Shown: piece by piece, positions 11,608-30,276 of the stretch
Position numbering within the stretch: position 1 is the stretch's first letter
Layout of the letters: the number at the start of each line of letters is the position of its first letter
Origin: a virus
Length of the DNA: 32,296 nt
Direction: 5' to 3' (one strand)
Virus record (IMG/VR): IMGVR_UViG_3300025122_000085
Location: 1-32,296 of that record
Translations under genes and position numbers: made by a program
Notes under the pieces: model-generated
Told to the model about the DNA's origin: nothing
Seen by the model: the letters and a program-made list of their open reading frames with translations, nothing else
Database searches by the model: none

Positions 11608-12159
11608 CTAAAGCACTCGTTCAAACTTCACGAGTTGCTGGTTTTCCGCCAAAGCCACTGAGTTCCAATCGGTCGTTGAACGAATCGCCGTGAAGCCATA
11701 TTCGAAAGCGTGTTCGTCTTGGCCAAATTGTGGTGCTACGCCCGTGTTTGATTGCGCCTTCCATACATAGACATTCATGGTGTTGCCACTGACCGCCATA
11801 TAATGTCGCACATGAATGGCAACTTCGGTAATGGCCGGCTCGCCTCCAAACGCAAACGTCTCGGCCGCAGCCGAAACAGTCGTAACGCCACCGCCAAGAG
11901 CATACGCAAGATTCGTGAAATCCCATTCTATGCCGGTGAATTTGAGCGACACATTCGATTGCTGTGAAAACGCATAGACTTGCACGCGAGGATTGCCCTG
12001 CATGATAGTCTTTACTTCGTTCGAAATTTCTAAGCCGACGCCGTCTTCGGCAATGGCCCCAACATCTACCGTCGGGGTTGATCCGGCGGCACCCAGAAAA
12101 AGAACAGCGGGGCCAAATGAGATGTCATTAGTTGTGACGGTCGGAATATTATAGGGCAT
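11608..12159 (-). CDS. Major tail tube protein
   Basis: This 183-residue beta-rich protein (SNVSLKFTGIEWDFTNLAYALGGG, split here by function) has the size and sequence character of siphovirus tail tube proteins. An N-terminal strand runs into a G/A-rich loop, followed by alternating strands and a central helix (FTNLAYALGG). It sits directly upstream of the tail chaperone pair and the tape measure gene and downstream of the tail-completion gene, the conserved order for this protein. It polymerises as rings to form the tail tube. A TTGACA promoter candidate and the ribosome site GGAGG precede it, and a long hairpin follows it, consistent with the high expression a tube protein needs. Confidence 0.85.
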   Translation of the reverse strand: MPYNIPTVTTNDISFGPAVLFLGAAGSTPTVDVGAIAEDGVGLEISNEVKTIMQGNPRVQVYAFSQQSNVSLKFTGIEWDFTNLAYALGGGVTTVSAAAETFAFGGEPAITEVAIHVRHYMAVSGNTMNVYVWKAQSNTGVAPQFGQDEHAFEYGFTAIRSTTDWNSVALAENQQLVKFERVL

Positions 12160-12269: not shown

Positions 12270-12653
12270 TTAGGCCGATATTGAGCGAGTGTCGTTTAGC
12301 TGGTTCTGTTCTCCGCACCGACGACAAGGCACCATAATTGACCCGCCTGCTCCTGGCGTGATGTATGCCACGAAATCCTTGTAACGAACGCGAAGCTCGT
12401 CTTTGTCTGCGTTATAGATCCCAAGTCGAGCACAGCAGTTTTCACATGCCCAAACTTCATCACGCATTGGCGGACGCTCTCCTGAACTGGGCGCATCACT
12501 GGGCGCATCATCGACCTGCTGGTTTACTTCGGTCTGTGAATAAACCACTGCCGAGACATGATGAAGCTGGGCATCCATCTCGCTAACTACCATTTCCAGC
12601 CGCTCAAGTCTTTCGGCTTCACGATCATGATTAGTCTTGGCGGGCGTTATCAT
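12270..12653 (-). CDS. Zinc-ribbon protein, Com-like
   Basis: This 127-residue protein has an N-terminal coiled-coil (about 10-45), a Ser/Pro/Glu linker and a C-terminal zinc ribbon with C70-x2-C73 and C110-x2-C113. The ribbon (WACENCCARLGIYN, then CRRCGEQNQLN) resembles Com of phage Mu, a zinc-binding mRNA-binding translational activator, and the related small phage ribbons. Function here is unknown: RNA or DNA binding, or structural zinc, are all possible. Its start overlaps the stop of the second zinc-ribbon gene (ATGA), so the two are translationally coupled. They lie between the tail-completion gene and the tail tube gene, an unusual place for regulators. Confidence 0.7.
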   Translation of the reverse strand: MITPAKTNHDREAERLERLEMVVSEMDAQLHHVSAVVYSQTEVNQQVDDAPSDAPSSGERPPMRDEVWACENCCARLGIYNADKDELRVRYKDFVAYITPGAGGSIMVPCRRCGEQNQLNDTRSISA

Positions 12654-12844
12654 TTTTTAATCCTTGCTATCGCCTGCTTTCCACAGCCGTTGCAGACCAA
12701 TATTGTGGCATGTCTTTCGTTTTTCGGTTTGGCAATTATGGTCGCCCCGACCGGCAAGGTTTCGAGCCTGTTGCCGCAGGCGCATTTCACAACGAGATCT
12801 GGTTCGTTTGGCGCGTTTGCTGTTTTCCAGTTCTGGGTTCTCAT
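12650..12844 (-). CDS. Small zinc-ribbon protein
   Basis: This 64-residue basic protein has a CxC (C21, C23) and a CxxC (C51, C54) separated by 27 residues, with GNRLE and GKQ in the usual zinc-knuckle positions. This is a rubredoxin-like zinc ribbon. It overlaps both neighbours by four bases (ATGA), and so is coupled to the tail-completion gene before it and the Com-like gene after it. No family name is recognised. Binding to nucleic acid is possible given the basic C-terminus (QAIARIKK) but is not shown. Confidence 0.65.
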   Translation of the reverse strand: MRTQNWKTANAPNEPDLVVKCACGNRLETLPVGATIIAKPKNERHATILVCNGCGKQAIARIKK

Positions 12845-13275
12845 GAAACGGCCCGATAGGATAGCCGAACCGTAAATATGCCGGTTGCGTAAAATGCTCG
12901 AACATTTTCGTTCCAGCCCTCGGTTGGCCTTGCTACCTCTACAGCATATCCGGCGACTTTAATTCCATCACGCCGCAACGTTTGGCAGTGCAGCGCGGCA
13001 AAGCACGCATCATAAAGCTGTAGAACGTGCCCTGCGGACTGGCGCGAGTAGGCCCAAACCTCTACCGTTGCCGCCTGGTATCCACTTGTGCCTTCTACTG
13101 AGCCGCCTGTCAAATCAATAACAACAAGCGGATAGACGGCACCGCCAGCATCAGGATTTTGAAGATGGGAACCATGAACGCGATCGTCCGCTATGGCGGC
13201 TACTGCCGAATCCGCCATTAGCGTCGCCCTGATTATTAGCTTTGCATCGTTCGAGCTTGGCGGTTGATATGCCAT
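12841..13275 (-). CDS. Tail completion / terminator protein (DUF3168-like)
   Basis: This 144-residue protein begins with a helix (NDAKLIIRATLMADSAVAAIA), followed by DDRVHGSHLQNPDAGGAVYPLVVIDL, a strand-turn-strand core and a C-terminal ARPTEGWNENVRAFYATGIFTVRL. This pattern of helix, proline-rich loop, YPxVVI strand and terminal F/Y-rich strand fits tail-completion proteins (gp17/gpU-like, DUF3168), which cap the tail tube and join it to the head. It follows the gp10-like gene directly and precedes the tail tube region, the expected position. I am confident of the class and less so of the exact family. Confidence 0.75.
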   Translation of the reverse strand: MAYQPPSSNDAKLIIRATLMADSAVAAIADDRVHGSHLQNPDAGGAVYPLVVIDLTGGSVEGTSGYQAATVEVWAYSRQSAGHVLQLYDACFAALHCQTLRRDGIKVAGYAVEVARPTEGWNENVRAFYATGIFTVRLSYRAVS

Positions 13276-13782
13276 CTATGCAAACCTAACGCCAGCGCCC
13301 GTACGAAGCTCTTTTCCAAGCACACGAACCACCGCCCGCATCATGTCTTTTTGAACTTCCGGTTCTTGGGCGGTTAGATAAATTGTGTTTCTGGGCAACA
13401 TTACTCGCGTTCCCTGAATCACGAACTTAGCGTATCCGACCGCCCCATAATTGAACCCAACCCGATAGCCTATTTTCTTTCCCGACCCCGTAATTTCGCC
13501 CGTTATATTGTTTCGCATCTTTCTTGATTGAGCATGAACTTGATACGGCTTTTCGGCGTGGATTTTAATAGAGCGATGTCTTCGGGCATAAGGGTGCCCC
13601 ATATCTGCCAGATCTTGGAGCGTATGGTCTATTAGCCCTATATTCCAATGAAGCGCTTTCTCCAGCACCTTTCCTGCCCCTTGGAGAGATTTTTTGGCCG
13701 CCTCGCCAAACGCTGCGCTTTCCAGCTTTTGTAAATTATACAGGCCCGCTTGAAGACCCTCTATTTCTATCGTCACGCTCAT
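13276..13782 (-). CDS. HK97 gp10-like head-tail connector protein
   Basis: The 168-residue protein starts with a strand and a long helix (GLYNLQKLESAAFGEAAKKS), then ALHWNIGLIDHTLQDLADMGHPYARRH and a basic, beta-rich C-terminal half. This resembles HK97 gp10-like minor tail/neck proteins, which complete the head-tail interface. In most phages the gene is next to the gp6-like connector gene; here the two are separated by the 7 kb transferase cassette. Its ATG overlaps the stop of the glycosyltransferase gene (ATGA), and its stop abuts the ATG of the tail-completion gene. Confidence 0.75.
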   Translation of the reverse strand: MSVTIEIEGLQAGLYNLQKLESAAFGEAAKKSLQGAGKVLEKALHWNIGLIDHTLQDLADMGHPYARRHRSIKIHAEKPYQVHAQSRKMRNNITGEITGSGKKIGYRVGFNYGAVGYAKFVIQGTRVMLPRNTIYLTAQEPEVQKDMMRAVVRVLGKELRTGAGVRFA

Positions 13783-16643
13783 GGGTTTATTCTGCCTTGC
13801 GGGGGCGTGTTTTCCAAGACACTATTTTTTTGATTCATTTCTGTATTTTTTGCAAGTTCCAATAATTCATCTAAATCTATGTCCACTGGAACTGCTGTCT
13901 CGGCTTTATTTGCGTTTCCGCTAACAGGCTGGTCTGGAAATGTTGCCTTCAACCACGATACAATTTCGGTTGCCGGCCCATGATATGGATGAGACTCCGC
14001 GAGGCGGAGCAGCGATTGTTCAAACAGCCGACGCCCCCGACGCAGCGTCACGGTCGCAAGCTCCTTCCATGGAAGATATGCGTATCCCGATAGCTCACAT
14101 GCCCGTTCAAAACAGCGCACCATCTGATCTTCCATCTGGTCGTTGCCATATTGTAAGCCAAGCGAGACCCATGGGGCTGGCTCTGTTGGGTTGGCGCGAA
14201 TTTCGTCTACCAGCAATCGGCTGTATCGAACCAGCTTTTCCTGCATTACCTCAGGGCCTCCAGCGAGTCCAAAATGGTTCACCGAAAACGGCGCATATCG
14301 CACCTTGGGAAATATGCCGTTCGCTATCATTTCACGGTTCGACTTTTCTACCGTTTCGTGAACCTTGCCTGAAAAATACACCATGCCGTTCGATTCCACC
14401 CTCACCATTCGTTGCGTTTCCGACCAATACCATTTCCCATCGTGTCGATAGTTTTTGAATCGAAACATCCATCCGAATCCATCACTAACTTCTGCCATGC
14501 GCCGAATAGAAACGGCTGTTGAAAACGCAGATTCAAATACCTCGTCGTCGTCCATAGACAGTGCCCACGAGATTCCATCAGCGCAATATTCACGTATCTT
14601 TACCATGGCCGCATTGCGGCACGCAGCCAAATCACCGTTGAATGGTTCGTGAATCCATTCTACATCGTATGCTTCGCCTACCTGTTTAATGCGCGGCGAT
14701 GGCTCGGACGTTTCCCCTGTCCAGACCAGAATTAATTTGTCTGCCAATCCATAGAAGTTCGACAACATTTCCGCAATGCCAAACGCCTGCTCGTCGTTAT
14801 ACGCAAGCATGAAATACGCAATCCCGTTTCGCTGCACATATGGCGAAAGCCTCATTCCCTCTTCGTCGATTAGATGGGAATATCCGCCTCCGCCCACGCC
14901 TCCCGTCGTCAGGCTTGCCTGTGGATTTGGGTCAAGCTGTGAATAGAACTGATGCTTTCTCATTCGATCTATCGGGCGAAGATATCCAAAATGCCTCATT
15001 CGCAAACCAGCTATACGCTTTGCTGAAATGCCATAATCGGGGCTGTTTCCGCAATGAAGACCTATTTCGTTGCCCCCAACTATGCGCCGTGGCGACGCGC
15101 TATTGTGTCGCCAAATGCGAAACCCTCGCATAGATGATGTGTAATCTGGGCCGCACCAAGGCGGGTCAACACGGCAAAGGCGCGGCGTGTCCCAATGGTT
15201 TAGCCATCCAATGTCATAAACCAGAACATTCGGGTCGGGGTGCTTCATGAGCCGCTGAACCATTTTTCTGGTGATTCGATCTTCAACAATCTCGTCATGG
15301 TCAATAGAAATTAGCCAATCGGTTTCGAGTGATTCAGCAAGCTCAATAGACCGATTGCGCTCATCACGTTCGTTCCATTCACCGTCCCAGCATTCGGTCG
15401 TAATTTGAATATTGCGATTCGACGCCTCGCTAACCGCTTGTTCAAGCCACCGATTGACAGCGTCCTGCACCTCAGTGGCCGATTTTGCAGATACGCATTG
15501 GTCAACAAGGGCAGCGTCCGCGCAGTGCAGTTTCTTTGCTGAATAATCTTTCGACCCCGTGATTTTTGCTGGATTATCCGTAACCAGCATCGCTATACCA
15601 TCGAACAGTGACGCTGAACGCTGAACACTGCTTCGCAACATATGTAGATCTTGCATGGTGAATAGCCGCACGCGATAACACGCTGCGATGGTCTGTTCTC
15701 GGCTTGTCCAGCTTTTCCATTTTTCAAGATAATCGCCAACGTTTGCGCATCCTCGGTTCACTTCAGGAAAATATGCGTCGAGGGTTTGGTGTCCTACGTG
15801 ATGCACATAGACGTTCATGGCAATTACTTTTCGCCAGCCAGCCATCTCTGCGCGGGCGCAAACGTCATTGTCGTCGTGCCCACCTATGCCAAAGCATGGG
15901 TCAAGGAACCAGTCGTTCTCGTTGTTGTAGAGGTCTTTAAGGCATCCCGCGCTATACATCGTAAGAAAGCCCGACAGATAGTTTGCGGATAGCACCGCGC
16001 CCGTGCTTTCAGTACGCATTTTTTCCGCAAAATCGTCAAGCATGGCATCTGCCGATGCTGTGAATCCCGATCCGTTGGACATGGTAATTTTGGGCGCCCC
16101 GATTCGCTGCATCCCAGCAGCATTGTTTGATACTGGACCCGCCATACCTATGCGTTCATCGTTACGGACTTTTGCGCCAGGATGCTTATCAAAATCAGGA
16201 CTGCCTGATAATAGCAACCGCTCGGAATCGAGGGCGTTGCTTAATTCGTCAAGCCACATCGCCCCGACCAACGCATCGTCGTTCATGATAACGAATCTGC
16301 TATCGCCCTCTGCGTATTTTGCGAGCGCCAGTTTCACTCCTTGATTTACTGCGCCAACCCAGCCGGCTGGGCCTGGAAGGTCAATCCAATCAAGCGTCAT
16401 GTCTATAGGGCCTACGCCATTAGCGTTCTCCGCCTCTATCGTTTGCACCGCTTCAACCTCGCATTGGATCTGATGCTTTGAAAACGCACATGCTTCTTTT
16501 TCATTTTCATGCGGATTGGCGATTATGATGAGGTGGGTATTCCATCCTGCGCGATTCATGAGAACTCGCGACACACATCGCACGATTAGATCGGGCGATC
16601 CCATGGTGGGAATAATAATCACGGCTCGTTTATTGTCTGTCAT
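13779..16643 (-). CDS. Triple-domain glycosyltransferase (three GT2-like domains plus TPR-like segment)
   Basis: This 954-residue protein has three successive GT-A type domains. Domain 1 (1-330) starts AVIIIPTMGSPDLIVRC, has NDD at 121-123 and the GT2-like segment GGHDDNDVCARAEMAGWR followed by HHVGH. Domain 2 (about 345-600) has DHDE at 448-451. Domain 3 (about 605-800) has LAACRNAAM and DDDE at 698-701, in the D-x-D/E metal-site positions. Residues 820-890 look like tetratricopeptide helices, and the tail is low-complexity. GT2 enzymes transfer sugars from nucleotide-sugar donors using a divalent metal. The start has GGAGG seven bases upstream, and the stop overlaps the gp10-like gene (ATGA). 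Co-expression with virion genes suggests it decorates the particle rather than the host; the acceptor is unknown. Confidence 0.88.
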   Translation of the reverse strand: MTDNKRAVIIIPTMGSPDLIVRCVSRVLMNRAGWNTHLIIIANPHENEKEACAFSKHQIQCEVEAVQTIEAENANGVGPIDMTLDWIDLPGPAGWVGAVNQGVKLALAKYAEGDSRFVIMNDDALVGAMWLDELSNALDSERLLLSGSPDFDKHPGAKVRNDERIGMAGPVSNNAAGMQRIGAPKITMSNGSGFTASADAMLDDFAEKMRTESTGAVLSANYLSGFLTMYSAGCLKDLYNNENDWFLDPCFGIGGHDDNDVCARAEMAGWRKVIAMNVYVHHVGHQTLDAYFPEVNRGCANVGDYLEKWKSWTSREQTIAACYRVRLFTMQDLHMLRSSVQRSASLFDGIAMLVTDNPAKITGSKDYSAKKLHCADAALVDQCVSAKSATEVQDAVNRWLEQAVSEASNRNIQITTECWDGEWNERDERNRSIELAESLETDWLISIDHDEIVEDRITRKMVQRLMKHPDPNVLVYDIGWLNHWDTPRLCRVDPPWCGPDYTSSMRGFRIWRHNSASPRRIVGGNEIGLHCGNSPDYGISAKRIAGLRMRHFGYLRPIDRMRKHQFYSQLDPNPQASLTTGGVGGGGYSHLIDEEGMRLSPYVQRNGIAYFMLAYNDEQAFGIAEMLSNFYGLADKLILVWTGETSEPSPRIKQVGEAYDVEWIHEPFNGDLAACRNAAMVKIREYCADGISWALSMDDDEVFESAFSTAVSIRRMAEVSDGFGWMFRFKNYRHDGKWYWSETQRMVRVESNGMVYFSGKVHETVEKSNREMIANGIFPKVRYAPFSVNHFGLAGGPEVMQEKLVRYSRLLVDEIRANPTEPAPWVSLGLQYGNDQMEDQMVRCFERACELSGYAYLPWKELATVTLRRGRRLFEQSLLRLAESHPYHGPATEIVSWLKATFPDQPVSGNANKAETAVPVDIDLDELLELAKNTEMNQKNSVLENTPPQGRINP

Positions 16644-16677
16644 GCGGCACCTCCGGGGCGTTAGCTACAGAACTGTA

Positions 16678-17304
16678 TCATGTTCCCTGAAGTTTGCATC
16701 GCAACGCATAATGAATGGGCCTAATTCCAAAACCCACTCGCACTTCACGCGCGCCTTCTATAATCCACTCTTTACTGTCTCCATCGTCTACAGCTATATC
16801 GTCCTCTTGTGGCGCCCATGTGCTTCCTTCATAATCCACGGACGCGTTTGCCATTTCTTTTTCATAGGTTCCCGGCCTAATTGCAGGAAAGGCCATAGAT
16901 CCCGATTCCATGAACGCCACCGGCCTGCTTGCGGCTACCGAATATCGTATAAGATTTGGCGTTCCGTCCGCGCTAACCGCTTTGGCTGATACAGTAGGCA
17001 CTGATGCTTCATCGGCCAGCCCCGTTGTAGTAATGCCTGAAACGGTCGCAAATCGATTAACCGTTACAACCGACCCGTTGCCCGTGAAGGTTAGGCTTTC
17101 AGATGCTGCTCCGCCATCTGCGTCTGTGCCACTGATGGTAACTGACCCCGTCCCGGTCGTGCCGCCATTTACTCTAATCTGCACAAACGAGTTTGCGGCC
17201 AACGATCTATCCGTCGACATTGTTGCCGTGGCCGTTGCTTCATCCATTAGATACGCCGTCTGCCTGTAGAACGTCCAGTATCTATTTGCCATTGACGTTA
17301 TCAT
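16678..17304 (-). CDS. Thr/Ser/Gly-rich beta-type protein, probable virion protein
   Basis: This 208-residue protein is rich in Thr, Ser, Gly and Ala, with short repeating strands (GTGSVTISGTDADGG, SLTFTGNGSVVTV) that look like Ig-like or beta-sandwich phage surface domains. The C-terminal 60 residues are different, with charged and aromatic residues (EGSTWAPQEDDIAVDDGDSKEW). There is no signal peptide or membrane segment. The start at 17304 has AGGG seven bases upstream. It lies inside the transferase cassette, between the sulfotransferase-like gene and the glycosyltransferase gene. It may be a head decoration or minor structural protein and, being hydroxyl-rich, is a candidate acceptor for modification; that is inference only. 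Confidence 0.6.
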   Translation of the reverse strand: MITSMANRYWTFYRQTAYLMDEATATATMSTDRSLAANSFVQIRVNGGTTGTGSVTISGTDADGGAASESLTFTGNGSVVTVNRFATVSGITTTGLADEASVPTVSAKAVSADGTPNLIRYSVAASRPVAFMESGSMAFPAIRPGTYEKEMANASVDYEGSTWAPQEDDIAVDDGDSKEWIIEGAREVRVGFGIRPIHYALRCKLQGT

Positions 17305-17316
17305 GTTTTGCCCTTT

Positions 17317-17874
17317 TTACAGCGCTATCTGATTGTGCCGAAAGCCAGTGCGGTCTTTCTTTTTCACGAACATTTCATGCTGCTGCACGAACTCGCTTTC
17401 GAAGTCTATTTCATAGACTGGCATATTGACCCGCATTTTTTGGCGCGTGCTCCAGATACGATTTTTAATGTCATACGCTCGTTCGCCCTTCAAGGCGGGT
17501 CCCCAAGTATTTTCATAGACAGTAATTTCGAGTTGCTCGATATTTTTGGACCATCCAATTCGGTCTTGGCTTCTCATAACTGCGCTGCGCTCGCGATTTA
17601 CCCAGACTATCGCTCGGTGCGGGGCGGCTGCGACATGATGAATTTTGTGCGCAAAAGCTGGGCACTGAATTGCTACGTTTTTGACTCCCAACGCCCGCCT
17701 CATGGAGTTCCAGCCATCGCTATTTACCTCCGCCTCTTCAATGTACCGAAGGCCAAACTTAGCCGCAAGCATGGCTGTTACGATATGAGTTCCGGCTCGT
17801 TGCGGGCCTGTGACTAATATTTGGCGGGCACCTGAAAGGGCGTCTACAACCTCTAATGCCCTGTTGAGTTTCAT
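17317..17874 (-). CDS. Sulfotransferase-like P-loop protein
   Basis: The 185-residue protein has an N-terminal strand and P-loop variant QILVTGPQRAGTHIV (residues 18-32), which matches the 5'-phosphosulfate loop of PAPS-dependent sulfotransferases better than an ATPase Walker A. A second segment AIVWVNRERSAVMRSQDRIGW-like (88-108) matches the 3'-phosphate-binding motif, with R94 and S102 in the expected spacing. MPVYEIDFESEFVQQ near the end resembles the family's conserved C-terminal strand and helix. At 185 residues it is shorter than typical members. The ATG at 17874 overlaps the methyltransferase stop (TAATG) and is preferred to the ATG at 17892. An alternative is a small P-loop kinase, but no adenylate- or sugar-kinase lid is seen. 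Confidence 0.65.
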   Translation of the reverse strand: MKLNRALEVVDALSGARQILVTGPQRAGTHIVTAMLAAKFGLRYIEEAEVNSDGWNSMRRALGVKNVAIQCPAFAHKIHHVAAAPHRAIVWVNRERSAVMRSQDRIGWSKNIEQLEITVYENTWGPALKGERAYDIKNRIWSTRQKMRVNMPVYEIDFESEFVQQHEMFVKKKDRTGFRHNQIAL

Positions 17875-18383
17875 TATTGTTTCTCGCCCCAAAACATAAG
17901 GTCCAAATCATTGCGTGCGTATTGAGCGTCAAGCTGTTTCCACGCGCACGCCTCTTTTAGAACCTCAATTACTTCATCTGTTGACCGATTTCCATAATAT
18001 CCGGGCGTCGGGCTATCGTTGAGATGATGCGCTCCCCGCTTTGGCGCCCCGCATGTAAAGACTAATACGCCCCCCGACGCAAGAAGTGACGCGGCGTGAG
18101 TTAGGGTTTCTTTCCAGAACGGGTCATGTTCGAGCATTTCGGTAGACACGACTACATCATATTCCGCTGCTTCAGGCTCCCATTCATGGGCCACGCCCAC
18201 AACATCAACTCCCTTTCCGCCATGAAAGTCTATTCCAACATATTCTGCTGGCTGACGAAACCATTGGCGGGGAGTTCCATTTATATCCCGACTTCCAAAC
18301 TCTACTACACGACATCCGGGTCCAAAGTGACAAGGATATCGCTGCGCAATCTTTCCTATAAAGGCCATGACCGTTCCATGCAT
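17874..18383 (-). CDS. Class I SAM-dependent methyltransferase
   Basis: The 169-residue protein has the Rossmann methyltransferase signature: motif I RVVEFGSRDINGT (25-37), an acidic residue ending strand 2 (VGIDFHGGKGVDVV, D52), and YDVVVSTEMLEHDPFW (75-90), the motif-IV/post-motif region of Methyltransf_11-type small-molecule or sugar methyltransferases. There is no nucleic-acid target domain and no NPPY motif, so a sugar or other small substrate is more likely than DNA. The start at 18383 follows one base after the stop of the upstream gene; the in-frame ATG at 18461 would overlap that gene by 77 bases and is less likely. The stop overlaps the sulfotransferase-like gene. Confidence 0.82.
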   Translation of the reverse strand: MHGTVMAFIGKIAQRYPCHFGPGCRVVEFGSRDINGTPRQWFRQPAEYVGIDFHGGKGVDVVGVAHEWEPEAAEYDVVVSTEMLEHDPFWKETLTHAASLLASGGVLVFTCGAPKRGAHHLNDSPTPGYYGNRSTDEVIEVLKEACAWKQLDAQYARNDLDLMFWGEKQ

Positions 18384-18384
18384 T

Positions 18385-18858
18385 CTACCGCTCGCCACTT
18401 GTTGGCTCGGCCTCTTTAGTTTCCTTTGGAGAACTTGCCTTATTCTGTTTCCACTTTCCATTCACGAGCGTTTGAACGCAACATTGTCCTTCGATACTTA
18501 CAAGGCGCGACACTTTGTTTGGCGGCGTTATCTCCTTCCACATGCCGTCACCCAGTTTCTTTAGAGCGTCTTTTATTTTCTTGCATGGGCGTTTCTTGCT
18601 AACAAACACGGTCAGAACAGCCCCCTTTGCTACCTCGTTGCAAACCCTCTTAGCGTCGGCCCCCCACACAACCTTCATGCCTTCAAGGTGCTGGACCCCA
18701 ACCCCAGCCTCATCAACCAGCACGGGCGTACCACGGCCCATCCTTGGAGCGCTGTCTCCACCGAAAAACAATACAGGCGACGCATAGTGCAAATGCTCTC
18801 CCAACGAGTCGCAATGGCTCGCACTGGGAACAAGTCCAATGAATTTCTCATGTCGCAT
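18385..18858 (-). CDS. Uncharacterised protein in the transferase cassette
   Basis: I do not recognise this 157-residue protein. The first 60 residues contain Gly-rich turns (ASPVLFFGGDSAPRMGRG); the middle (VLTVFVSKKRPCKKIKDALKKL) is a strand plus a basic helix. The C-terminal 40 residues are lysine/serine/glutamate-rich and probably disordered. The gene overlaps the RmlB-like gene by 11 bases and is followed one base later by the methyltransferase gene, so it belongs to the same translational unit. No catalytic motif is evident. Confidence 0.55.
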   Translation of the reverse strand: MRHEKFIGLVPSASHCDSLGEHLHYASPVLFFGGDSAPRMGRGTPVLVDEAGVGVQHLEGMKVVWGADAKRVCNEVAKGAVLTVFVSKKRPCKKIKDALKKLGDGMWKEITPPNKVSRLVSIEGQCCVQTLVNGKWKQNKASSPKETKEAEPTSGER

Positions 18859-19888
18859 ATCGTTCTTCCTTTGGCATGGTAGCCGTGGCGAATTCCGCTA
18901 ATCGCACTTCCGAATCCGTATAGTGGCTCAATAGCTGGGCAAGTTCCGCATGGTTCAAAATGTCTCGCTTCGGACTGTTGGCGTCCATCCACGTATTGTA
19001 TCTGTCGCCATTCAGTGCATAGGCCATGTCTTGACCAGGACGGTCGGCCACTTTTATTGCCGCCTTGTCTTCTGGAACGCCCGCTATACCCGCGAGCGCC
19101 ATTATTAGATCATGCACTGAGCATCGCGTTGGCCCAGCTATATTGAACGTGCCAAAATCAATCCCTTTCTCATAAAGCTCTGCTGCACATGCCAAAAGGC
19201 GGTCGGCGAACTCGCTTACATGAATCCACTGTCGAATCTGCGCTCCTCCCCCATGCAAGGGCACTGGTTTTTGATGATTAAGCAAGCGACACGCTATGGG
19301 CACCAGTTTTTCATGATATTGATTCTCGCCCCATGCGTTGCACCCTCTTGCAATTACATATCGCAATCCAAAGCTCCGGCTCATGGCCCTAATTGCCATT
19401 TCTCCCGCCGCTTTGCCCGCCGAGTATGGTGAGCTTGGATGAAGGGGATGGTTTTCAGTTCGTTCAACAATATTTACTCTTTCGCCATCACCCTCTACAA
19501 CCTCTAACGAATCGCCATACACTTCATCAGTCGAGCAATAAACGATAGGCAGCCCAAATTTGGCGCACTTAGATGCCATAACTTGCGTGCCCATGGCGTT
19601 CACTCGCATTGTTTGGGCGGGGTTATCCAGACTATTATCAACGTGAGACTGCGCTGCGAGATGCAATACGACATCGGGACGAGACGCATATATAGCTTCT
19701 TCTACCCGCTCCCCCACGCAAACATCTCCACGCATAAGACGGTCGCCTATCTCGCCGCCCACTTTCTCCCAGCCAGTAGCGGCCCGAGTGCAATTATCAA
19801 GCACCCAAATATCGTGTCCTTCTTTCTTTGCTTGAAACACAAGATGCTGCCCAATAAAGCCGCAGCCTCCCGTAATTAAAAGCCTCAT
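18848..19888 (-). CDS. NAD-dependent nucleotide-sugar epimerase/dehydratase (RmlB-like)
   Basis: This 346-residue extended short-chain dehydrogenase has the NAD-binding motif TGGCGFIG (6-13), LHLAAQSHVDNS (75-86), the RmlB-type active site STDEVYG (119-125, with the Thr-Asp-Glu trio) and YSAGK (155-159, Tyr and Lys of the catalytic pair). A later DRPGQDMAYAL matches the sugar-nucleotide-binding segment of dTDP-glucose 4,6-dehydratases. The Asp-Glu after Thr favours a 4,6-dehydratase over a simple 4-epimerase. The reaction would produce a 4-keto-6-deoxy nucleotide sugar in the cytoplasm, a donor precursor for the downstream glycosyltransferase. It overlaps its neighbours by four (ATGA) and eleven bases. 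The exact substrate is not readable. Confidence 0.88.
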   Translation of the reverse strand: MRLLITGGCGFIGQHLVFQAKKEGHDIWVLDNCTRAATGWEKVGGEIGDRLMRGDVCVGERVEEAIYASRPDVVLHLAAQSHVDNSLDNPAQTMRVNAMGTQVMASKCAKFGLPIVYCSTDEVYGDSLEVVEGDGERVNIVERTENHPLHPSSPYSAGKAAGEMAIRAMSRSFGLRYVIARGCNAWGENQYHEKLVPIACRLLNHQKPVPLHGGGAQIRQWIHVSEFADRLLACAAELYEKGIDFGTFNIAGPTRCSVHDLIMALAGIAGVPEDKAAIKVADRPGQDMAYALNGDRYNTWMDANSPKRDILNHAELAQLLSHYTDSEVRLAEFATATMPKEERYAT

Positions 19889-20277
19889 CGTTGTTCCATT
19901 CGTTTCATAATGGCCACGACTACGCTTTTGCGTGTTTTTCCTCCCTCTTCTGCCGCCAGCAATGATTCAAGATCACTGTCGTGCTTGCCTGTTTTAAGGG
20001 CGCGCTCAATGCTTCTTACTGAACTATCAAGAAGCGATTGGCTTGTTGATTTGATCACGCTCACCTTGGCGGTCATAATTTTACTTGGGCGCGATTTTGT
20101 GGTTTCGCCCGAAAGCCTCCATCCTTTGCGAAGCAAGGCGCGAACAGAACTGCCCCGATGCGCCTCTATTTCAAACCCGCCGTCTTTTGGAATGGCTCGT
20201 AAAACCTCTTCTGGACAATGAACAGTGAACGAACCACTTGAGTCACCCGCTTTGGGCTTGCGACATAGAATAGGCAT
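19885..20277 (-). CDS. Phage protein of unknown function
   Basis: The 130-residue basic protein has an N-terminal beta-rich half (SFTVHCPEEVLRAIPKDGG, then a strand and basic loop). Its C-terminal half ends in SLLAAEEGGKTRKSVVVAIMKRM, a helix pair resembling the C-termini of small phage structural proteins in the head-tail joining region. It starts within the stop of the gp6-like gene (TAATG) with AGGGAG upstream, and its stop overlaps the RmlB-like gene (ATGA). It is therefore the hinge between head-joining genes and the transferase cassette. No family is recognised. Confidence 0.6.
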   Translation of the reverse strand: MPILCRKPKAGDSSGSFTVHCPEEVLRAIPKDGGFEIEAHRGSSVRALLRKGWRLSGETTKSRPSKIMTAKVSVIKSTSQSLLDSSVRSIERALKTGKHDSDLESLLAAEEGGKTRKSVVVAIMKRMEQR

Positions 20278-20846
20278 TAAATACTCCCTGAAGGAAAAGC
20301 GCGCCGATAGCGAGCCAAGATTGCTTCTGCTGTGACTGGCATAGCGCGACCGTCAACCGAATACCGATAGCCACTGACGCTTTCGTTAGCGAGTCCCGCG
20401 TGCCGTCCAGCATTAAACTGTGCAGCACATATCAACGTTGCCGCATGGGATAAATCTTCAGGCACCGTGGCGTGACCGAACGTATATGTGACCTCAACTC
20501 GTTCTCGCCCTTCAGTAAAGAAGGAGCCGTAATTAGACAAACGAATAACGCCCGCTCGCTCGTCGACATAGTAGCTGGTAGCCGCAACGGTAGCCCCCGC
20601 AACAAGCATTGATGCAACCGATATTACCGGGAAATTTCGCAGCACCAATTCGTTTTCGTGATTTGATTCTATGTCATAGCTTTCGTTTGTGACGGTCGTT
20701 TGAGTTAGCGCCGCCATGCCGCAATACGCTAATATCTGTTGGTCTGCTACCTCAAGAAGCGTATCAATAAGCGTATCGTGCTGCGTAACCGACGACGGCA
20801 CGCCCAAGACTCGTTTCACCTTATCCCTGGTCGTGAGGTCTGCCAT
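20277..20846 (-). CDS. Head-tail connector protein (gp6-like)
   Basis: The 189-residue protein begins with a helical half (TTRDKVKRVLGVPSSVTQHD, then LIDTLLEVADQQILAYCG), then a beta-hairpin (LVLRNFPVISVASMLVAG, YYVDERAGVIRL) and a final helix. This is the layout of HK97 gp6 / SPP1 gp15-type adaptors, which form a ring under the portal. Helices of the DxxIxxLLxxAxxxIxxYCG type and the NFPVISV strand are characteristic. It lies downstream of the capsid gene, as expected. Confidence 0.82.
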   Translation of the reverse strand: MADLTTRDKVKRVLGVPSSVTQHDTLIDTLLEVADQQILAYCGMAALTQTTVTNESYDIESNHENELVLRNFPVISVASMLVAGATVAATSYYVDERAGVIRLSNYGSFFTEGRERVEVTYTFGHATVPEDLSHAATLICAAQFNAGRHAGLANESVSGYRYSVDGRAMPVTAEAILARYRRAFPSGSI

Positions 20847-20848
20847 TT

Positions 20849-21355
20849 CTACATCTCCAACGCCAGCCGCCCGGCATCAGTAATTTTGTACTGATACCGG
20901 CGATTGCTCGCTATTGCCCGTCGCCGCTTGTCTATGTTGCACTCCACAAGCCCTTTCTTTTCAAGATACTTGATTGCTGTTCGCCATTCACTGTCTGGAA
21001 GATCAGTGGCCTGTTCCACAATTTCAACCTTTCCGTGCCAACCGGCGTTCATGTTTGCCAGTGTTTCAAGAATATGTCGCTGTCCCGCCGTTGAAGGCTT
21101 TGGTGTAGTCTCGTTCACCATTTCCAAGAACTGTGCGGTAATGTCTCGCCAACCCAGCTTTTGCGCCCTTTGAAGCGCTGACTCGTTTTTAAGAAAGATA
21201 GTATGACGTGCCTCGCCATTGAATGTAACGAGACGACTTTGCGCCGTTTCGTTGTACGACGAAAACAATTGTGGAATGTCCGAATTTAGATGCCGAATCA
21301 TTTGTGCCACAAACTTGTATGAACCTGGCCTTGGCGGCTCTTTCAAAATTCCCAT
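20849..21355 (-). CDS. Winged-helix DNA-binding-like protein in the head operon
   Basis: The 168-residue protein has a C-terminal winged-helix-like domain (about 85-165): AGQRHILETLANMN, then a recognition-type helix DSEWRTAIKYLEKKGLVECN, then a wing with basic residues (DKRRRAIASNRRYQYKITDAG). The N-terminal 80 residues are of unknown fold. The arrangement resembles MarR/PadR-like regulators, yet the gene sits between the major capsid and gp6-like genes. It may be a regulator of the late operon or a structural protein that has borrowed the fold. The start has GGAGGG eight bases upstream. A terminator-like hairpin and a TGATACAGT motif lie between it and the capsid gene, so its expression is probably set apart from that of the capsid. 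Confidence 0.6.
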   Translation of the reverse strand: MGILKEPPRPGSYKFVAQMIRHLNSDIPQLFSSYNETAQSRLVTFNGEARHTIFLKNESALQRAQKLGWRDITAQFLEMVNETTPKPSTAGQRHILETLANMNAGWHGKVEIVEQATDLPDSEWRTAIKYLEKKGLVECNIDKRRRAIASNRRYQYKITDAGRLALEM

Positions 21356-21446: not shown

Positions 21447-22457
21447 TTATGCTGCGCTGATTCCGCCAAGAACAGCCGTGCCGAGCGGATTGCCAAGAAC
21501 ACATGCGCCATCCCAAAAGATGTCGAAGTTTTCATTCTGGCTGTCATCACGAGCAAGAGGCATCATGGTCGTTGGAGTAAGTTCCTCAATCCATGCGTGC
21601 CGCTTATTGACAATCACGAGCCCTGTTGTCGGGTTCGTGGACTCGCCCGTCAAGGCCGACAAAGCCGAACCACTCCAGGTCATGTCATCGGGCATACCGG
21701 TTGATACCACGATGGGAATTCCGTCGTAGCTTCGGACTCGGAATCCGCCAGCGATTTCAACCATGTCGTTGAACTGTTGTTGAGACTGAAGCGCCGCGTT
21801 GAGCTTTCGAACTCCAAGATACGAACCATAAATGACCACATCAGAGCGAGCAGCAGACCCGCGAACCATGTCAATGGTCTCATCGAGTTTGGCGAGAGTT
21901 AACGAATCGCCTGCTGCGGCGGTCGTGTTTGCTACGACCTGTGCCTGAGTTGCATATGCATTGATTTGCGTCAACAGACCATCAATTTGCCCCGCTACCG
22001 CGCCCGAATCGCCAATGAACAAGGCGCTTTCCAGAGCATTGTTGAAATCGTCGAGTTTGAGGGTCATTTCTTCCGCAAGCACATCGAGATACGACCGACC
22101 GGTTGCCCTGATTTTTCGGGTCACCTGCCCACGAGTGGCAAGAGTCTGATACGTGAAGGTGCTTTGAGCATATGTTCCGGTCGATTCGGTAAGTGCTGCA
22201 GTATCAGCAACCCAGACGTTTCCTGCCGTCATAGTGGCCGCCGTTCGACGGTTCACAATAGCTTGCGCTCCCTGACCAGGCTTACGGGCCAACGTGCCCA
22301 TCGCGCCAAATTCACGCAATGAAAGTTGCTGAATTACGCGATTGACGTAGCTTTGGGTGAGTCGCGTTGCAGCGGTTGTGACCGTAACGGCTCGCTCGAA
22401 GGCTTGACGCTGCTGGTCGCTCATGTTTGCCCATGCGGGCGTGTTGATGCCAGACAT
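21447..22457 (-). CDS. Major capsid protein (HK97 fold)
   Basis: The 336-residue protein forms the icosahedral shell. It has an HK97-type composition. A helical spine region (SYLDVLAEEMTLKLDDFNNALE, about 125-150) is followed by an alpha/beta A-domain. Near the C-terminus, MMPLARDDSQNENFDIFWDGACVLGNP is the typical last strand-turn-strand of the family. There is no long N-terminal delta domain, in line with a separate scaffold encoded upstream. The start has GGAGGT six bases upstream, inside the end of the protease/scaffold gene, and the gene is followed by a strong hairpin. Order (portal, protease-scaffold, capsid) supports the call. Confidence 0.9.
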   Translation of the reverse strand: MSGINTPAWANMSDQQRQAFERAVTVTTAATRLTQSYVNRVIQQLSLREFGAMGTLARKPGQGAQAIVNRRTAATMTAGNVWVADTAALTESTGTYAQSTFTYQTLATRGQVTRKIRATGRSYLDVLAEEMTLKLDDFNNALESALFIGDSGAVAGQIDGLLTQINAYATQAQVVANTTAAAGDSLTLAKLDETIDMVRGSAARSDVVIYGSYLGVRKLNAALQSQQQFNDMVEIAGGFRVRSYDGIPIVVSTGMPDDMTWSGSALSALTGESTNPTTGLVIVNKRHAWIEELTPTTMMPLARDDSQNENFDIFWDGACVLGNPLGTAVLGGISAA

Positions 22458-26659: not shown

Positions 26660-26678
26660 ATTACCAACAAGGGAGAAG
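26650..26678 (+). repeat. Repeated promoter-leader block, copy 1
   Basis: This 29-base block contains GTAGTATTG, then TATTACCAACAAGGGAGAAG, ending with the ribosome site of the gene at 26681. It differs from the copy at 30248-30276 at only two positions. Confidence 0.85.
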
Positions 26679-28810: not shown

Positions 28811-29063
28811 CGGGTTCGTCTTTGGGTGCTGGTAATTGGTTCGCCTCTACAGCCTCTACAGCCTCTACAGCCTCTACAGACTCTACAGCCGGTTCAGGTG
28901 AAGGGATAGCCTTCAGCATTTGTAAGATTTCCGACATGGAGGCAGCGACCTGTTCAACGTTCGCCACGGGCGGCACGGGGGCAGGTTCCTCTATTTTTGT
29001 GGGCTCGGTCTTGGTTGGCTCGTCGGCCCAACAAAGTGTGATCAAAAAAACAAAGATTCCCAT
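28794..29063 (-). CDS. Small exported repeat protein
   Basis: The start at 29063 gives an 89-residue protein, two bases after the stop of the upstream membrane-protein gene and with AAGG upstream. The first 13 residues (MGIFVFLITLCWA) look like a short signal peptide with cleavage after CWA. The rest is low-complexity and acidic: PTKTEPTKIEEPAPVPP, then a helix, then VESVEAVEAVEAVEAN encoded by tandem 9-base repeats. With its neighbour it makes a small pair, one membrane-anchored and one exported, which recalls lysis accessory (spanin-like) pairs. There is no true lipobox (LITLC has Leu before Cys), so this is only a suggestion. Confidence 0.55.
   Translation of the reverse strand: MGIFVFLITLCWADEPTKTEPTKIEEPAPVPPVANVEQVAASMSEILQMLKAIPSPEPAVESVEAVEAVEAVEANQLPAPKDEPATDTK
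28850..28893. repeat. Tandem 9-bp repeat
   Basis: About five copies of the unit CTCTACAGC (plus strand) lie inside the small exported protein gene, with one unit carrying a substitution (GACTCTACAGC). On the minus strand they encode Val-Glu-Ala repeats. This is the kind of array that changes copy number by slippage. Confidence 0.85.
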
Positions 29064-29706: not shown

Positions 29707-29917
29707 TGGCTTCTCCCTTGTTGGCAGGTTGGGGAAGGCATGTTTTGCAATGGTCGATTCCTTCGTCTCGTCCTTGTGCGTCTTTGATCCATGTCACCGT
29801 GGTATGGCGCCGAGCGTTGTTCTCGTTCTCGTATATTTCTCCGCACACTTCGCATTCTACGGAATGGTCTTTTCCTTGAGGGGCAAGGTAACGATGCGGT
29901 CTGTTTGGTAATGACAT
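29696..29917 (-). CDS. Small zinc-finger protein
   Basis: The 73-residue protein has C22-x2-C25, then H38 and C57-x2-C60, with ECEVCGEIYENENNARRH like a C2H2/C4 finger. It probably binds one zinc and perhaps DNA. The gene is preceded by the repeated promoter-leader block and is coupled to the next gene through an overlap. Its last ten codons contain a copy of the same ribosome-site repeat, read as protein. Confidence 0.65.
   Translation of the reverse strand: MSLPNRPHRYLAPQGKDHSVECEVCGEIYENENNARRHTTVTWIKDAQGRDEGIDHCKTCLPQPANKGEANVP
29709..29725 (-). repeat. Repeated leader block, partial copy (ribosome-site part)
   Basis: CCAACAAGGGAGAAGCC serves as the ribosome site of the gene starting at 29706 and at the same time codes for the C-terminus of the upstream zinc-finger protein. 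The promoter part of the block is absent here. Confidence 0.8.
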
Positions 29918-29920
29918 AAT

Positions 29921-29948
29921 TTCTCCCTTGTTGGTATTACTATACTAC
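29921..29948 (-). repeat. Repeated promoter-leader block, copy 3
   Basis: The block reads GTAGTATAGTAATACCAACA then AGGGAGAA, in front of the zinc-finger gene starting at 29917. It matches the copy at 30248-30276 except for one base in the -10 region and the terminal base. Confidence 0.85.
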
Positions 29949-30247: not shown

Positions 30248-30276
30248 CTTCTCCCTTGTTGGTATTACCATACTAC
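30248..30276 (-). repeat. Repeated promoter-leader block, copy 2
   Basis: This 29-base block (GTAGTATGGTAATACCAACA then AGGGAGAAG) is directly before the gene starting at 30243. It contains the -10 element and the ribosome site. Confidence 0.85.

Follow-up and report, generated by a model that had tools for sequence, protein, structure and literature searches.

A conserved glycosyltransferase in the head–tail operon of an uncultured tailed-phage family suggests glycosylation of the phage particle

The uncultured viral contig IMGVR_UViG_3300025122_000085 (32,296 bases, analysed over its whole length and referred to here as the window) encodes phage proteins, and an island of genes for building, transferring and modifying sugars lies among its head–tail joining genes. 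The minus-strand order is terminase, portal, a 524-residue protein, major capsid protein (MCP, 21447–22457), a winged-helix-like protein and a gp6-like adaptor; after the island come a gp10-like protein, a gp17-like protein, a zinc-ribbon-like protein, the major tail protein (MTP, 11608–12159) and the tape measure. The island, its two borders and the adjoining tail terminator are as follows.

20277–20846, minus strand: gp6-like head–tail adaptor (neck 1), upstream border of the island (Pfam PF05135, E = 4e-5; PHROG 442 head–tail adaptor, E = 1e-28)
19885–20277, minus strand: unk130, a 130-residue protein conserved after gp6 in most relatives (hidden Markov model matches at 60 loci)
18848–19888, minus strand: RmlB-type NAD-dependent nucleotide-sugar 4,6-dehydratase (PDB profile matches, catalytic motifs)
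18385–18858, minus strand: unk157, a small conserved protein with a variable C-terminal tail (39 loci)
17874–18383, minus strand: S-adenosylmethionine (SAM)-dependent methyltransferase (Pfam PF13489, E = 1e-10; PHROG 32762, E = 4e-26)
17317–17874, minus strand: 3'-phosphoadenosine-5'-phosphosulfate (PAPS)-sulfotransferase-like P-loop protein (motifs, fold)
16678–17304, minus strand: predicted stopper/head-closure protein (neck 2) with an insert (predicted fold, gene position)
13779–16643, minus strand: glycosyltransferase (GT), GT2-GT2-GT2-TPR (Pfam PF13641, E = 4e-12; domain profiles)
13276–13782, minus strand: gp10-like, neck-1 or tail-completion protein, downstream border of the island (PHROG 5, E = 0.002; directly after the GT in relatives)
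12841–13275, minus strand: gp17-like tail terminator (Pfam PF11367, E = 3e-5, slightly under the cut-off)

The first-pass annotation, made from the letters alone, had named most of these island genes, and they are indeed found between the gp6-like and gp10-like genes on the minus strand, in an order that cannot be put down to chance, being repeated in 24 independent species-level clusters. Its list lacked the small gene unk130, which sits between gp6 and the RmlB-type gene. The statement that most junctions overlap by a few bases holds for four short overlaps of 1–11 bases: gp6/unk130 (1 base, TAATG), unk130/RmlB (4 bases, ATGA), RmlB/unk157 (11 bases) and GT/gp10 (4 bases, ATGA, 13779–13782), the last read from the sequence as had been described. 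It fails around the stopper, where 12 bases separate it from the sulfotransferase and 34 from the GT. Alignments place the start of the sulfotransferase-like gene at ATG 17874, 1 base inside the end of the methyltransferase gene. An upstream methyltransferase start at 18461, giving an apparent 77-base overlap, was discarded as a start-codon artefact; relatives align from MHG/MHA, and in an alignment of 5 relatives the most likely start is 18383 (MHGTVM).

Relatives were gathered by a search with the capsid protein followed by a search with the capsid alignment, and clustering at 95% capsid identity yielded 51 species-level clusters, the window included. The complete gp6–gp10 interval, 3.5 to 8.2 kb in length, is available in 24 clusters besides the window. 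The GT is present in all 24 and in the window; an automated count had returned 23 of 24 because the open reading frame filter missed locus L060, in which the gene-order listing shows the GT. Looked for in other phage genomes, the layout is thus family-wide. The stopper lies within the interval in 20 of the 24, and an SDR-family sugar enzyme in 19. When searches were seeded with the GT instead of the capsid, the GT again appeared in the gp6–gp10 setting, immediately before gp10, at the loci examined.

GT distances track MCP distances with a Mantel r of 0.84, as compared with 0.89 for MTP, 0.77 for gp6, and a range of 0.63 to 0.89 across gp6, gp10, gp17 and MTP; the divergence of the GT therefore agrees with that of the capsid as closely as the divergence of the structural genes does. 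This correlation and the constancy of the GT across intervals indicate that the GT has been passed down as part of the structural operon rather than inserted recently into a single genome. A single GT sequence used as query in viral contigs retrieved no relatives, whereas an alignment of GTs did. Against 50,697 phage records, tblastn of the GT returned weak Listeria matches only, and MCP, stopper and distant GTs gave no match. No GT was confirmed in bacterial genomes.

The earlier description of the GT as a three-domain protein fell short, as it comprises three GT2-type domains (D1, about residues 1–318; D2, 319–600; D3, 600–815) and a TPR tail (about 815–890). The N-terminal domain matches Pfam PF13641 with 47.1 bits against a cut-off of 27 (E = 4e-12), which places it in the GT2 type. 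DxD-type acidic motifs are found in all three domains (NDD, DHDE and DxDE) in 8 of 8 aligned GTs. The D3 profile matches SunS (E = 6e-6) and GmaR (E = 1.3e-4), and the tail matches TPR (E = 5e-14). SunS and GmaR, the latter being the flagellin glycosyltransferase of Listeria, act on peptide or protein, and the relationship suggests that D3-TPR is a protein glycosyltransferase of this type. D2 is probably related to D3; the hhalign probability is just 45%, and the acidic motifs align.

In an alignment of 29 GTs, the DxDE motif of D3 is kept throughout, and every GT sequence extending that far retains D3. Degeneration of D2 is confined to L070 and L083. Decay of D1 affects more loci, the domain being absent from L086 and L089 and degenerate in L070, L075 and L083. 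This nested pattern, which reflects two or three independent events, would be expected if D3 acts first, and points to an assembly order of D3, then D2, then D1.

The protein encoded at 16678–17304, described earlier as a hydroxyl-rich beta protein belonging to the cassette, appears instead to be a neck protein. Its AlphaFold2 model (predicted local distance difference test score 82) gave no strong match in a Foldseek search of the PDB. On realignment of the Foldseek candidates with VIA-align, the first 15 rows were all phage neck proteins, the best being XkdH (Z = 10.9, root-mean-square deviation 2.6 over 91 residues). These alignments take in both chain ends, with about 90–110 residues aligned, so that the stopper fold corresponds to residues of about 1–15 and 120–208, and a beta-sandwich is inserted at about 16–113. 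The insert by itself matches other structures, namely carbohydrate-binding and virion surface beta-sandwiches. The order of the genes, with the stopper between adaptor and terminator, agrees with this. No known stopper family was matched by the sequence with the insert either retained or removed, and the identification thus rests on fold and position. We conclude that the modelled protein is a predicted stopper/head-closure protein (neck 2) with a Ser/Thr-rich insert; a role as lectin or enzyme was dropped upon the fold match. Ser and Thr make up 30% of the insert and 12% of the core in the window, and each of the 33 relatives compared likewise has a larger share of them in the insert (means 29% and 14%), making the insert a candidate glycan acceptor.

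For the RmlB-type dehydratase, the top PDB profile matches are dTDP-glucose 4,6-dehydratases (best E = 1e-62), and the motifs T120-D121-E122 and Y155-x3-K159 are invariant in 9 relatives. Since it scored 206 bits against the NCBIfam TIGR01181 equivalog cut-off of 365.1, it is assigned as RmlB-type only. No RmlA-like gene (NTP_transferase) was found in 11 long relatives, and it is from this absence that host supply of sugar nucleotides is proposed. In the sulfotransferase-like protein, a loop resembling the 5'-phosphosulfate-binding loop (GxQRxGT) and R94-x7-S102 (3'-phosphate motif) are invariant in 6 relatives, the spacing of the latter being, as we presume, like that of known sulfotransferases. 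The window protein has no Pfam sulfotransferase match; the best Sulfotransfer_3 score, in L022, is 22.2 bits against a cut-off of 27 (E = 2e-4). Foldseek placed Teg14 second, and with VIA-align small kinases lead (9.5, versus 7.8 for TPST1). The fold by itself does not separate the two groups, and the assignment is therefore supported mainly by the motifs. Unk130 has no Pfam or PHROG match. Function searches with unk157 gave weak matches only, mostly to designed proteins. Unk157 occurs in many relatives, including some without RmlB. It may be one of the neck genes, since in L009 it lies close to gp6 and RmlB does not separate the two.

The dehydratase, methyltransferase and sulfotransferase had been taken as a fixed pathway, but between relatives they behave as interchangeable accessories. 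The slot between unk130 and unk157 holds RmlB, other SDRs, a GDSL-like protein or larger sugar sets. Two islands are unusually rich: L072 (13524–20426) carries RmlD, RmlB, a B12 radical SAM protein and methyltransferases, and L078 (11990–17219) two SDRs and a DegT aminotransferase. The slot between unk157 and the stopper contains a methyltransferase only in L012, L014, L026, L040, L046 and L050, a sulfotransferase only in L005, L015 and L022, both in the window and L021, and neither in other relatives. The GT stays constant as the tailoring genes swap, a pattern that diversifying selection on the glycan would be expected to produce.

On balance, we favour the interpretation that the island is a late-expressed protein-glycosylation module within the head–tail operon, which decorates the phage's own particle in a family of uncultured tailed phages. 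For the sugar, the order of steps, the acceptor and the benefit, we infer the following scheme. The host would provide activated glucose, from which the RmlB-type enzyme would make a 4-keto-6-deoxy sugar nucleotide, to be finished by host enzymes or used unchanged. The C-terminal GT2-TPR part of the GT would attach the first sugar to a Ser/Thr-rich virion protein, with the second sugar added by the middle GT2 domain and the third by the N-terminal one, and the methyltransferase and/or sulfotransferase would cap the glycan. The acceptor may be the Ser/Thr-rich insert of the stopper, encoded by the gene next to the GT; capsid and tail-tube proteins are alternatives. The first-pass proposal of a short pathway modifying the particle survives in part: there is a sugar building and transfer set, co-inherited with the particle genes, for which a protein target, probably on the virion, fits best, but the beta protein lies outside the pathway.

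If this is correct, a widespread family of uncultured phages would have protein glycosylation as a core trait, not as an accessory found now and then, and the modular exchange site would allow lineages to change the sugar they carry. The nested domain loss of the TPR-GT2 transferase would provide a model, open to direct testing, of how a single phage enzyme builds a glycan step by step, and the insert in the stopper would be a specific acceptor with which to begin. A more specific version, which we advance tentatively, is a glycosylated head-closure ring, in which the stopper sandwich bears a methyl- or sulfate-capped glycan as a sugar collar at the head–tail junction, and the adaptor–stopper interval serves as a family-wide cassette exchange site that changes the glycan.

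Several considerations weigh against decoration of the particle. A site in a late operon is by itself insufficient proof of a virion target, and GT2-TPR proteins could act on other acceptors. The Ser/Thr composition is a weak test, given that beta-sandwiches are often Thr-rich. The GT and stopper need not be adjacent: a stopper beside the GT was not found in L070, L075 or L083, and in L090 it lies elsewhere, downstream of gp17. No cultured relative was found among the phage records searched with the MCP, and the family is known here from its genes alone.

RmlB and GT2 enzymes are classic components of surface polysaccharide synthesis, and the slot content varies as it would for a target on the host surface. 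The module might accordingly change the O-antigen, capsule or a surface protein late in infection, preventing re-adsorption by released particles (superinfection exclusion). We regard this as unlikely, as the GT is locked to the particle genes and co-inherited with them, and its D3 resembles peptide or protein transferases. Moreover, neither a GtrA-type flippase nor an integrase was found in 13 long relatives, and the cassette proteins of the window contain no strongly hydrophobic segment (top 19-residue hydropathy 1.4).

A protein target other than the particle, such as a host protein, an assembly factor or a lysis protein, would also suit a GT of the protein type, given that synteny indicates co-expression and not the acceptor. 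The position among neck genes, the tight co-inheritance with MCP and MTP and the Ser/Thr-rich insert of the stopper speak for the particle instead, and leave this alternative with a small share of the probability. Glycosylation by the GT of hydroxymethylated bases in the phage's own DNA seems very improbable. A TET/JBP oxygenase, known to accompany DNA glycosylation in phages, is encoded in 3 of the 13 long relatives; it is missing from the other 10, whereas every complete interval contains the GT, and no hydroxymethylase of the thymidylate synthase type was found. The TET genes also lie in a separate operon, and in 2 of the 3 have transferase-like, radical SAM and cupin genes of their own (read by eye).

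Virion glycosylation by phage enzymes has been reported for the mycobacteriophages Che8, Corndog and Myrna, in which, according to the accounts that cite this work, the measured glycan sits on the C-termini of capsid and tail-tube proteins (Freeman 2023, cited in PMC12619734, PMC12363180). Phage virion glycosylation is therefore already known; the present case is set apart by its gene position, enzyme architecture, tailoring slots and family-wide conservation. Both systems have phage-encoded glycosyltransferases with the phage's own structural proteins as proposed targets. In the present family, read from genes, the GT lies within the head–tail cluster, has three GT2 domains and TPR, and is accompanied by dehydratase, methyl- and sulfotransferase genes. 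The GT shares a GT2 domain with GmaR and the sublancin glycosyltransferase SunS, but both are matched by D3 alone, whereas three GT2-type domains are fused here. The dehydratase resembles RmlB (dTDP-glucose 4,6-dehydratase) in its TDE and YxxxK motifs and best PDB matches, and differs in its sub-threshold equivalog score and in the absence of an RmlA-like gene from the 11 long relatives. The stopper is like XkdH, neck 2 of phages 7-7-1, Milano and Pam3 and the SPP1 connector in predicted fold and in its place between adaptor and terminator; it differs by the inserted Ser/Thr-rich beta-sandwich of ~100 residues and the lack of a family match at the sequence level.

The repeat TACCAACAAGGGAGAA occurs four times in the window (26662–26677, plus strand; 29711–29726, 29921–29936 and 30249–30264, minus strand) against 0.25 expected, in front of short ORFs and, in three copies, alongside a GTAGTAT-type block. 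It is probably an early promoter with a ribosome-binding site. All four copies are confined to the portal–terminase block, a distribution consistent with the cassette being expressed late, though not proof of it. A promoter scan yielded a count no better than in shuffled sequences, terminator-like sites numbered 24 against 15 expected with none decisive, and Rfam gave no matches. A nine-base direct repeat, GCCTCTACA, forms about five tandem units at 28843–28896.

The TET/JBP genes belong to L098, L099 and L100 (from G012, G004 and G005, respectively), and those of L099 and L100 are accompanied by ParB-like, radical SAM, transferase-like and cupin genes, with which they may form a cluster for hypermodification of DNA. 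The zinc-ribbon-like protein (12270–12653, paired CxxC) is conserved between gp17 and MTP in relatives, with no family match of weight. The winged-helix-like protein (20849–21355) is likewise conserved, at 86 loci and so in nearly all relatives, between the capsid and gp6 genes, a place where a regulator would not be expected.

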